In this document: positions 20,827 through 29,335 of the stretch, piece by piece | Position numbering within the stretch: position 1 is the first letter of the stretch | Layout of the letters: each line of letters starts with the position of its first letter | NCBI GenBank assembly: GCA_904373265.1 | Contig: CAJFEE010000004.1 | Span: 1 to 33,228, forward strand | Length of the DNA stretch: 33,228 nt | Origin: Candidatus Harrysmithiimonas galli | GTDB lineage: Bacteria; Bacillota; Bacilli; CAJFEE01 | Reading direction: 5' to 3' | Notes under the pieces: generated by a model | What the model saw: the letters and a program-made list of their open reading frames with translations, nothing else | What the model was told of the DNA's origin: nothing | Database searches by the model: none | Position numbers and translations under genes: made by a program

Positions 20827-20855
20827 TTGCATATATGCAGTAAAAATGATATCAT
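20827..20855 (+). promoter_or_regulatory. Promoter of the glyQS operon
   Basis: TTGCAT, 17 bp, TATCAT with extended TG (TGATATCAT). The start is expected near 20862, leading into the T-box leader. Confidence 0.65.
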
Positions 20856-20861
20856 GACATA

Positions 20862-21162
20862 TAGTATGAATACATATATCATACATTGACGGAAAAAAGT
20901 ACTTATTCATTGCAATAAAGCGAGTTCGGGATGGGTGGAAAGCCGAACATTGCAACATAAGGAAATGGGCACTCCTGAGTATGATTTTACAAGCGGCTTT
21001 GAGCCGGTTTTTGGCAATAATCGGTTGTTATTTTGTGGCTGATGTTTTGCTGTCATATTTTACAAGAGATTTTGGCTTTGTGCCAAAATAATTAGGGTGG
21101 AACCGCGGGTAATTTAAGCACTCGTCCCTATGCCTCATGCATAAGGATTGAGGGCTTTTTTG
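20862..21162 (+). promoter_or_regulatory. Glycine T-box riboswitch with terminator
   Basis: The T-box sequence AGGGTGGAACCGCGGG is at 21094-21109. Stem I begins about 20899 with the conserved GCGAGTTCGGGATGG loop and CCGAAC partner. A candidate GGC (glycine) specifier lies at 20968-20970, just before ACTCCTGAG. A stem III is AGCGGC/GCCG near 20992-21006. The terminator at 21123-21162 ends in TTTTTT. Uncharged tRNA-Gly is expected to stabilise the antiterminator and switch on glyQ and glyS. Assignment of the specifier fits the downstream genes. Confidence 0.93.
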
Positions 21163-24189: not shown

Positions 24190-24828
24190 GTGCAAACCAT
24201 CGAACTGAACGAACGCCAGTTGAAAATTGTAGAGATTGTAAAAGCATACGGACCGATTACAGGCGAGCGAATTGCTGAACTTCTTTCTGTTACAAGAGCA
24301 ACCTTACGTCCAGATTTGGCAATTTTAACCATGTCTGGTTTTTTGGAAGCAAGACCACGTGTTGGTTATAAATATGTCGGACGTAGAGATGGGATTGAGG
24401 ATATTGAACGTATCAAAAAGAAAATCGTTCAAGAATATATGTCTATTCCGGTTGTTGTGCATACAAACGCAAATGTTTATGATGCCATTTGTACTATGTT
24501 TTTAGAAGATGTTGGTACTTTATTTGTGGTTGATGAGAATAAAGTTCTTGTTGGTGTGATTTCTAGAAAAGATTTGCTTCGGGCGAGTATCGGCAGTCAG
24601 GATTTACAAAAAATGCCAGTTAATATTATCATGACGCGGATGCCAAATATTACATATTGTTATAAAACAGATTCAATGGCTAAAGTTTCAAAAATTATGA
24701 TGGATAAGGCAATCGACGGTTTGCCTGTAGTACGTGATACGAAAACTGGATTGGAAGTCATCGGAAGAATTACGAAAACCAATATTACAAGATTAATGGT
24801 AGATATTATTGAAGGACGTATTATTTAA
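24190..24828 (+). CDS. ccpN: CcpN, HTH plus CBS transcription regulator
   Basis: 212 aa. An N-terminal winged helix (residues ~8-62: [12 protein letters not shown] ... ARPRVGYKY) is followed by two CBS domains ([14 protein letters not shown]-like [20 protein letters not shown], and [11 protein letters not shown]). In B. subtilis CcpN represses gapB and pckA during glycolysis, responding to ATP/ADP. Here it sits between glyS and ppsR as in Bacillus. The start is odd: GTG 24190 aligns with the B. subtilis N-terminus but lies inside the ribosome site AAGGGGGTG; an ATC at 24199, 6 nt after that site, is a possible non-standard start. Confidence 0.93.
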
Positions 24829-24860
24829 AGATGGTGTCTTCATATGAAGGAGGTTTTTTT

Positions 24861-25670
24861 ATGGATAGGCCGAGGATATACATTGTTTCTGATTCGGTGG
24901 GAGAAACGGCAGATCTTGTGATTAAAGCGGCTATTAGCCAGTTTGATTGTTCGATTGTCACGAAAAGAATTCCATATGTGGAAGATAAAGTAACGATTAA
25001 AGAGGTTGTAACCATGGCAAAGCTGAATCATGCTATGATTGCCTTTACATTGGTCAAGCCAGAAATTCGTTCGTATTTGCTACAACAAGCGGAGGAATAC
25101 AGTGTTCCGGTTTTTGATATTATTGGACCAATGATTGATCAAATGCAGAACTTTTATCATATTTCTCCCAAGTATGAACCAGGCATGGTTCGTAAAATGG
25201 ATGATGAATATTTTAAACGTGTGGAAGCAATTGAATTTGCTGTGAAATATGATGATGGGAGAGATCCGCGTGGCATTTTATATTCCGATTTGGTTTTAAT
25301 TGGGATCAGCCGCACCTCAAAAACTCCGCTTTCTCAATATTTGGCACTGAAGCGCTTAAAGGTTGCTAATGTACCGATTGTCCCAGAAATTGAGCCGCCA
25401 GAGGAGCTGTTTCAAGTTCCAAAAGAAAAATGTGTCGGTTTGAAAATTAATCCCAAACGTTTGATTCACATTCGAAAAGAACGTCTGAAAACATTAGGAC
25501 TTAGTGATGAGGCAAGTTATGCAAATCTGAAGAGGATTCAAGAAGAACTGGTGTATTTTGAACAACTGATTGAAAAAATCGGTTGTCCAGTTGTGGATGT
25601 AACAAATAAGGCAGTAGAAGAAACTGCCAATCTGGTATTGGGAGCGTTGAATACTGAGAGAGAAGGATAG
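24861..25670 (+). CDS. ppsR: Pyruvate, phosphate dikinase regulatory protein (YqfL/DUF299 family)
   Basis: 269 aa, the family length. The P-loop is [11 protein letters not shown] (residues ~152-162). The enzyme is bifunctional in characterised members: ADP-dependent phosphorylation and Pi-dependent dephosphorylation of PPDK or PEP synthase. It starts at ATG 24861, 8 bp after AAGGAGG; the upstream frame start at 24831 has no ribosome site. Together with CcpN this places control of the PEP-pyruvate node behind glyQS. Whether a PPDK exists elsewhere is unknown. Confidence 0.93.
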
Positions 25671-25682
25671 AAATGGTAAGAT

Positions 25683-25717
25683 AGATGGTTGTCGTTTTCT
25701 GGCTGCCATCTTTTTTT
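25683..25717 (+). terminator. Terminator of the glyQS-ccpN-ppsR operon
   Basis: AGATGG pairs with CCATCT, followed by seven T. Confidence 0.85.
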
Positions 25718-26144: not shown

Positions 26145-26241
26145 ATATACTTGTGGTCATCAAAATAAAATAGATATATTGAAGAATATGCCGATAAAAA
26201 GCAGGAATTCAATTGAAATATGTAGAAGAACAAAGATAAAG

Positions 26242-26270
26242 AAATGTCGAAAATCCATATTTCGGTATTT
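26242..26270 (+). other. Hairpin in the dnaG leader
   Basis: AAATGTCGAAA pairs with TTTCGGTATTT (two wobble pairs), loop of 7. There is no full T-run, so it may be a weak terminator or a leader structure. Confidence 0.4.
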
Positions 26271-26280
26271 TAAAAGCATA

Positions 26281-26317
26281 TATATGACAAAATTCGACGC
26301 GAAATATGTCATATAAT
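26281..26317 (+). promoter_or_regulatory. 35-bp dyad overlapping a promoter -10 upstream of dnaG
   Basis: TATATGACA (26281-26289) and TGTCATATA (26307-26315) are perfect inverted repeats. TTCG (26293-26296) and CGAA (26300-26303) share the same centre at 26298. The right arm overlaps TATAAT at 26312-26317, about 70 bp before the dnaG start. This is the layout of an operator for a dimeric repressor. The regulator is unknown. Confidence 0.55.
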
Positions 26318-26383: not shown

Positions 26384-28204
26384 ATGGTTGGAAAAGTTCC
26401 AAATGAAGTTTTCGATGATATTCGTTCTTCGGTCGATATTGTTGATGTCATTGGGGAACAGGTTTCTTTAAAAAAGGCTGGAAGAAATTATAAAGGACCC
26501 TGTCCTTTTCATCAAGAAAAAACACCATCTTTTTCCGTTTCATCAGATAAACAAGTCTACCACTGCTTTGGATGTGGTGCAAGCGGAAATGTTGTGACTT
26601 TTTTAATGGAAAGTCAAGGTTATACTTTTTATGAAGCCATGCTTGACTTGGCAAAGCGCTCTGGTAAAGAACATTTGCTAAAATCAGTATCATTCCCTTC
26701 AGTACAAAGAGAAGAATCAAATGATAAAGATCTGTACGATGTTCACGATATTTTAACCAAGCTTTACATGCATTATTTACTGAATAGTGATGAAGGTACA
26801 GTTGCACGTAAATACTTAGAAAAAAGGAATGTTTTTACAGAAAGTATAAAGTTATTTCAAATTGGGTATGCTCCCGGTAAAGATTTGGCTTTAAATTATT
26901 TGAAAAGTTTAGGATATGAACTGGAATTATTGGACAAGGCTGGTATTGTAACCAAATCTGAGTCCGGAATTTATCGGGATACTTTCCGTGATCGTTTGAT
27001 ATTTCCGATTCATGATGCGCTTGGACGCGTCATTGCATTTAGTGGCAGAACATTGAATGATAGAAGTCCAAAATATTTAAACAGCAAAGAGACGCCGCTT
27101 TTTCATAAAACGAAGATTTTATATAACTTTCACAGAGCACGTCAAGAAATAAAGCAAACTGGAACAGTTGTCCTTTTTGAAGGATATATGGATTGTATTG
27201 CGGCACATGCAGCTGGTGTTTCCAATGGAATTGCGACAATGGGTACAAGTTTTACACAAGAACATCTGTCAGTGATTGGAAAAAATATTAAAGAAATTAA
27301 GCTTTGTTTTGATGGAGATGCTGCTGGATTAAAAGCAACAAGTATAACTGGTCGTTTTTTGGTTGAAAATGGATATCAGGTTTCAGTTTGTCGTTTACCT
27401 TCTGGGCTGGATCCAGATGAATATATTCGAAAATACGGTAAGGAAGAATTTCAAAACCAAATTATTTTTGGTACAAAGACTTATATTTCTTTTCAATTGG
27501 AATATGTTAAGAAGGATAAGAATTTAGATCGTGCCGAAGATTTTGGACAATATTTGAAAGAAGCATTAGAAATTATTGCTCAAGTGAAAAATGAATTTGT
27601 ACAAGAAGGTTATATTCAAGCTTTAAGTATGGATATAGGAATTTCTTCAAGAGATTTGAAAGAAAAACTGGATCGCTTGCAAAAAGGTGGTCTGAATACA
27701 TCGCCACCTGGACAAAGTCTTGCAACAGAGAAAGCATTTGTTCCAAAAAGAGGTTTGACGCAATTTACAGTAATTCAAAATGCAGAACGTTTTTTACTGG
27801 CGTATATGCTGGAAAGCTCTGAAATAACAATGCGTGTGAAAGAAAGAATTTACCAATCCTTTTCAATTGTTGAGCATCAAGCTATTGCAACTTTATTATA
27901 TGCTTTTTATGAGGAGGGAAGTCCGCCTTCTTTAGAAAAGTTTTTAGGGCAAGTGAGTGATGCCTGCTTACGGGCAATCATTCTAGATATCAGTGAGATT
28001 CCGATTCCAGATGAAATTTCACAGCAAGCATTTGAAGATTATTGTCGCATCATTTTGGTAGATCTTCCTGAAATGATACGCAAAGAAAAAATTGAGAAGG
28101 AAATTGAAGAGGCTGAACGGAATCATAATTATATACGAGCAGCCGAGCTGGTTCAAGAGCTGGCGAAAAAGAACGCAGGGGTTCTTATTCCTATGAAAAA
28201 TTAG
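26384..28204 (+). CDS. dnaG: DNA primase
   Basis: 606 aa. The N-terminal CHC2 zinc-binding domain (CPFHQEKTPSF ... YHCFGCGASGN, residues ~40-67) binds template DNA. The catalytic core has the TOPRIM motifs VVLFEGYMDC and CFDGDAAGLKA. A C-terminal helical domain contacts DnaB/DnaC helicase. Ribosome site GAGAGGTG precedes ATG 26384. It primes Okazaki fragments. rpoD follows after 12 bp, forming the classic macromolecular synthesis pair. Confidence 0.98.
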   Translation: MVGKVPNEVFDDIRSSVDIVDVIGEQVSLKKAGRNYKGPCPFHQEKTPSFSVSSDKQVYHCFGCGASGNVVTFLMESQGYTFYEAMLDLAKRSGKEHLLKSVSFPSVQREESNDKDLYDVHDILTKLYMHYLLNSDEGTVARKYLEKRNVFTESIKLFQIGYAPGKDLALNYLKSLGYELELLDKAGIVTKSESGIYRDTFRDRLIFPIHDALGRVIAFSGRTLNDRSPKYLNSKETPLFHKTKILYNFHRARQEIKQTGTVVLFEGYMDCIAAHAAGVSNGIATMGTSFTQEHLSVIGKNIKEIKLCFDGDAAGLKATSITGRFLVENGYQVSVCRLPSGLDPDEYIRKYGKEEFQNQIIFGTKTYISFQLEYVKKDKNLDRAEDFGQYLKEALEIIAQVKNEFVQEGYIQALSMDIGISSRDLKEKLDRLQKGGLNTSPPGQSLATEKAFVPKRGLTQFTVIQNAERFLLAYMLESSEITMRVKERIYQSFSIVEHQAIATLLYAFYEEGSPPSLEKFLGQVSDACLRAIILDISEIPIPDEISQQAFEDYCRIILVDLPEMIRKEKIEKEIEEAERNHNYIRAAELVQELAKKNAGVLIPMKN

Positions 28205-28216
28205 GAGGAAAGTTGA

Positions 28217-29335
28217 ATGGAAGAAAAACAAAATAATGTACAGGAAACAGAGGTATCATTGGAGCAGGCCAAACAGGACATTGTTTCGGCAGGAAAGAAA
28301 CGTGGTATCTTATCTTATGAAGAAATTGCTGAAAAGCTAAGTGTCTATGAAATTGATTCAGATGCAATGGATGAGTTTTATGAACATATTCGTGAGCAAG
28401 GAATTGAATTGATTGGTGCGATTGAAGATGATGCACTGATCCCCTCTGTTGAAGATGCAGATAAAGAAGAATTTGACTTGAATGACTTGCGAATACCGCC
28501 TGGTGTAAAAATCAATGATCCAGTTCGTATGTATTTAAAAGAAATTGGGCGTGTTGACTTACTATCGGCTGCTGAAGAAATTGAATTGGCAGAAAGAATT
28601 GAGGCTGGTGATAAGGAAGCCAAACGTAGGCTGGCTGAGGCCAATTTGCGTCTAGTTGTTAGCATTGCGAAAAGATATGTCGGTCGAGGTATGTTGTTTT
28701 TAGATTTGATTCAAGAAGGCAACATGGGATTAATTAAAGCTGTTGAAAAATTTGACTATCGAAAAGGATTCAAATTCAGTACGTATGCAACATGGTGGAT
28801 TCGTCAAGCCATTACACGAGCCATTGCCGATCAGGCAAGAACGATTCGGATTCCAGTGCATATGGTTGAAACCATCAACAAATTAATTCGGATTCAAAGA
28901 CAATTGCTGCAAGACCTAGGACGAGATCCAACACCAGAAGAGATCGGTGCTCAAATGGATTTACAACCCGAAAAAGTTCGAGAGATTTTAAAAATTGCAC
29001 AGGAGCCAGTGTCTTTGGAAACTCCAATTGGTGAAGAAGATGATTCACATCTAGGAGATTTTATTGAAGATCAAGATGCTACATCACCTTCTGAGCATGC
29101 GGCTTATGAGCTATTAAAAGAGCAATTGGAGGATGTACTGGATACATTAACGGATCGAGAGGAAAGTGTGCTTCGTTTGCGTTTTGGTTTGGATGATGGA
29201 CGGACAAGAACATTAGAAGAGGTAGGTAGAGTTTTTGGCGTAACACGTGAACGGATTCGTCAAATTGAAGCAAAAGCATTAAGAAAACTGCGTCATCCAT
29301 CTAGAAGCAAGCGTTTAAAAGATTTTTTGGAGTAA
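28217..29335 (+). CDS. rpoD: RNA polymerase primary sigma factor SigA
   Basis: 372 aa (B. subtilis SigA 371). Region 1.2 is [11 protein letters not shown]. Regions 2.1-2.4 include [18 protein letters not shown] and [13 protein letters not shown], which read the -10. Region 3 is [15 protein letters not shown]. Region 4.2 is [20 protein letters not shown], which reads the -35. Ribosome site TAGGAGG. It directs vegetative transcription, consistent with the many TATAAT and TGnTATAAT elements in this window. Confidence 0.98.

Follow-up and report, generated by a model that had tools for sequence, protein, structure and literature searches.

A single-copy 35-bp dyad ahead of dnaG-rpoD in Candidatus Harrysmithiimonas galli that resembles a CcpN box pair

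Whether dnaG and rpoD, which encode DNA primase and the primary sigma factor in Candidatus Harrysmithiimonas galli, are preceded by an operator, and which protein might read it, is the question raised by a palindrome on contig CAJFEE010000004.1 (the window, i.e. the whole stretch of 33,228 nucleotides analyzed here). The dyad spans 26281-26315, is centred on 26298 and pairs at 14 of its 17 symmetric positions. Its outer arms form a perfect 9-bp inverted repeat, TATATGACA (26281-26289) and TGTCATATA (26307-26315), and its inner arms TTCG (26293-26296) and CGAA (26300-26303) enclose ACG within 26293-26303 and share the same centre, so that the full sequence reads TATATGACA-AAA-TTCG-ACG-CGAA-ATA-TGTCATATA. 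Pairing count, simulation and an inverted-repeat listing, in which the dyad appears with 16-nt arms that are 88% complementary, describe the same feature, to which no strand is assigned. The two-level symmetry around one centre that a first-pass annotation had noticed is real; the extent given there, up to 26317, holds for the dyad as far as 26315, and its last position is the end of a TATAAT hexamer. The dyad lies in the AT-rich 713-bp spacer between yqfL and dnaG, with its 3' end 68 bp before the ATG of dnaG. It is real, single-copy and well placed, and its function is unproven. An intrinsic terminator was considered and rejected: the stem is followed by ATGATAG, without a T run, and the scan placed no plus-strand terminator there.

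The surrounding gene order is glyQ, glyS, ccpN, yqfL, the spacer, dnaG and rpoD. On the plus strand lie ccpN, encoding the transcriptional regulator CcpN (24190-24828; NF053704, 304 bits against a cut-off of 260), a yqfL/ppsR-type gene for a regulator of pyruvate phosphate dikinase (24831-25670; NF003742, 321 bits), dnaG for DNA primase (26384-28204; TIGR01391, 463 bits) and rpoD/sigA for the primary sigma factor (28217-29335; NF006666, 679 bits). CcpN is an HTH-CBS repressor of gluconeogenesis. A search with the protein of the sister genus G001 found no yqxD in the window. Directly after yqfL, a terminator-like hairpin (25683-25717, plus strand; AGATGG...CCATCT, then a T run) was read by eye, its loop exceeding what the terminator scan allows. 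Since this hairpin would end the ccpN-yqfL unit, dnaG probably has a start of its own within the spacer.

Where this start lies is less evident. The right arm had been said to cover the -10 element, and TATAAT (26312-26317, plus strand) indeed overlaps the last four bases of that arm as a possible -10; however, inspection of the sequence and a promoter scan gave no usable -35, and a sigma-A promoter with this hexamer is absent from the ten best-scoring promoters of the spacer. The best sigma-A score in the whole spacer, 16.8, is nearly equal to the median of random spacers, 16.5. With a promoter further upstream, the dyad could fold into a hairpin within the dnaG mRNA leader, 5' of the coding region, and affect stability, processing or translation, a role that we consider improbable. 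Its predicted fold of -12.1 kcal/mol (z of -3.7 against shuffles) would suit such a leader, although every DNA dyad folds as RNA and there is no homologue from which covariation could be read. Starts further upstream are possible, given that seven promoters, two of them sigma-H, serve this operon in B. subtilis (PMC2824700). A sigma-H-like sequence, GCAGGAATT-N14-AGAAG with one mismatch, does occur upstream of the dyad at 26201-26228, but it is one of 31 such matches in the window and therefore at chance level. Also in the spacer, about 133 bp before dnaG, stands TGTCGAA (26245-26251), a Spo0A-type box, of which the window holds just two exact copies when both strands are counted; spo0A is present in the genome. 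Repression of dnaG transcription has been reported in connection with starvation and sporulation (PMC12090719).

Could a palindrome of this quality have arisen by chance, without any function, in a 713-bp AT-rich spacer? Dyads in which 14 or more of the 17 positions pair appear in only 1.6% of 3000 first-order Markov spacers of the same length and composition, which argues against chance, as do the position ahead of an essential operon and the resemblance to the pckA operator of the same genome described below. On the scale of the window the picture changes: equally good dyads occur in 17 of 60 Markov windows of 33 kb (mean 0.3 per window), and three centres in the real window reach this level. 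The dyad is thus unusual for the dnaG spacer, but in a whole window inspected by eye its presence is no great surprise, and taken by itself it is no strong proof of function. Spacer promoter scores that do not rise above random, and the lack of conservation in 35 dnaG upstream regions and in 397 other genomes of the class, are further points on the side of chance, an explanation that we hold to be a serious, if minority, possibility.

The comparison that gives the dyad a candidate reader is with TRTGHYATAYW, which we take to be the consensus of the CcpN box. This motif was tried on the upstream regions of pckA from 30 relatives and of gapB from 29. Plus-strand boxes with at most one mismatch were found in 27 of the pckA and 25 of the gapB regions, and exact ones in 22 and 20, respectively; 40 of these 42 exact boxes end in CT, the exceptions being at loci L096 and L158. 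The consensus therefore holds in the relatives, with the last two letters narrower than written. In the genome studied here, pckA carries a perfect inverted pair, AATATAACATA-N11-TGTGTTATACT, and gapB the box TATGCTATACT; a trained matrix scores them at 17.9 and 11.4 bits for pckA and 14.9 bits for gapB. Among the relatives, many gapB promoters (L150-L178) have, some 33 bp downstream of the first box, another CcpN-like one in inverted orientation, and several pckA promoters (L075-L104) have such a box about 21 bp upstream.

Read against the same consensus, the dnaG dyad forms an inverted pair: the left box TTTGTCATATA (26281-26291, minus strand) agrees at 10 of 11 positions and the right box TATGTCATATA (26305-26315, plus strand) at all 11. 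Their matrix scores are low, 2.0 and 6.9 bits, because both arms end in ATATA, with TA in place of the CT of the ATACT ends at pckA and gapB in relatives. In an alternative register the right side holds a further exact box, TATGACATATT (26303-26313, minus strand), of 9.7 bits. Single boxes that outscore those of dnaG exist elsewhere in the window, 12% of random spacers reach 9.7 bits, and among random dyads of the same composition 1.25% reach this score and 0.8% contain an exact consensus box. The starts at dnaG are 24 bp apart, against 21-22 at pckA, and with at most one mismatch only pckA (distance 22) and dnaG (distance 24) have inverted pairs in the whole genome at these two distances; pckA is the only perfect pair at distance 22, and dnaG the only place at distance 24 with up to two mismatches. 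Simulation gives an expectation of 0.25 pairs with at most one mismatch per 2.7 Mb over distances of 18-30. The motif that the first-pass annotation did not recognise hence resembles a CcpN box pair and is not wholly unrecognisable. The inverted boxes of the TRTGHYATAYW type are shared with the pckA and gapB operators of Bacillales, in which one box overlaps the -10; at dnaG the overlapped -10 would be the TATAAT for which no usable -35 was found. Unlike those operators, the dnaG arms end in TA, and the box starts are 24 bp apart.

Similarly to the Bacillales pckA/gapB systems, CcpN is encoded in the same genome, in this case 1.5 kb upstream of the dyad, a nearness that was itself part of the reason for picking CcpN as the candidate. 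A 14-residue stretch of this CcpN, presumably in its HTH region, is identical in five of the seven relatives compared. We put the probability that the dyad is a CcpN operator of the dnaG-rpoD unit at roughly 0.3.

The suggested genome-wide check gave no second copy of the arms with N17 in the 2.70-Mb genome at up to two mismatches, and one place at three. When the spacing between the arms was allowed to vary, a single additional match turned up, within a coding frame, and a control pattern gave as many. Among 398 genomes of the class, a 26-base version with up to three mismatches occurred just in its own. Retention of the dyad before dnaG in close relatives, on which the annotation had wanted an operator to be judged, was found in none of 35 dnaG upstream regions (nearest: five mismatches in 18 arm bases), a weak test in that the nearest DnaG, from the sole other genome of the same family compared, is just 45% identical; this absence consequently says little about close relatives. 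The set comprised 29 relatives and six further loci; 31 other loci, and 30 relatives that matched but for which no locus was obtained, lay outside it. In the 29 relatives the 1500 bp ahead of dnaG contain no inverted pair of CcpN boxes, and the few single boxes of at least 8.5 bits there are all more than 950 bp away. In the sister genus G001, a 14-pair, 35-bp dyad of unrelated sequence precedes dnaG between yqfL and yqxD (L041, 730-830); read by eye, it seems to be the start of a longer hairpin-rich element resembling a repeated palindrome.

The dnaG-rpoD unit may plausibly have an operator in front of it, and the single copy fits the annotation's word "dedicated", although the promoter is not evident and chance is a serious alternative. 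The dyad might also serve another dimeric regulator, for instance one with dnaG-rpoD as its only target. To this we give a rather low probability: 14 of 17 pairs at 68 bp from the ATG are unusual for the spacer, a single genomic copy would suit a dedicated regulator, and the CT in which good CcpN boxes end is missing from the arms, but neither a regulator gene nor a second site points to any candidate, and the dyad is common to no relative examined. Sites of GlnR/TnrA, Fur, CIRCE, PurR, LexA, Rex and dif type seemed unsuitable, because their half-site order or spacing differs.

If CcpN is the reader, what would it do? In B. subtilis it represses gapB and pckA (PMC7028823). By analogy, CcpN, encoded two genes upstream, would bind as two units to the two inverted boxes, whose starts are separated by 24 bp; the right-hand unit would cover the putative -10, and the two would hold the dnaG-rpoD transcription unit down during glycolytic growth as at pckA and gapB. 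Supply of primase and primary sigma factor would then follow the state of carbon flux. Binding, promoter and direction of control are all inferred here. The dyad would govern replication and transcription genes and not gluconeogenesis, a difference from the pckA/gapB operators, as is its lack of conservation in the relatives examined. The CcpN regulon of Lactobacillales (ppdK, ccpN and fbp) shows that the targets shift between lineages (PMC3616900), although in that group they stay gluconeogenic.

The arrangement has a parallel in the macromolecular synthesis operon of B. subtilis and S. epidermidis, where ccpN (yqzB/serp1130) and yqfL (serp1129) also lie upstream of dnaG-sigA, although the available text of PMC2824700 describes no such dyad and yqxD was not found in our spacer. 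The same paper reports co-transcription of serp1130, the YqzB/CcpN homologue, and serp1129 with dnaG and sigA in S. epidermidis, suspects termination between serp1129 and dnaG, and asks whether the two proteins regulate the operon. A CcpN-like operator before dnaG-rpoD, if true, bears on that question; if chance made it, the dyad is ordinary. Glycolysis mutations rescue B. subtilis dnaG, dnaC and dnaE mutants, through a mechanism discussed in terms of enzymes and metabolites (PMC1866360), and such suppression also appears in PMC9009071 and PMC10427196; CcpN is unmentioned in the sections available of these three papers, and a search of an open-access collection found no report of CcpN acting on dnaG. 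Direct control of primase and primary sigma factor by CcpN through the dyad, a doubtful proposition at this stage, would add a transcriptional link from central metabolism to replication and transcription capacity beside the enzyme-contact links proposed for B. subtilis.

Two observations concern the genes upstream. At the start of the glyQS T-box leader lies a weak inverted CcpN-type pair (20851-20885, three mismatches), at chance level. This glycine T-box leader (20877-21132) may govern the CcpN repressor too, because the gaps that follow are very short, 31 bp between glyQS and ccpN and 2 bp between ccpN and yqfL.
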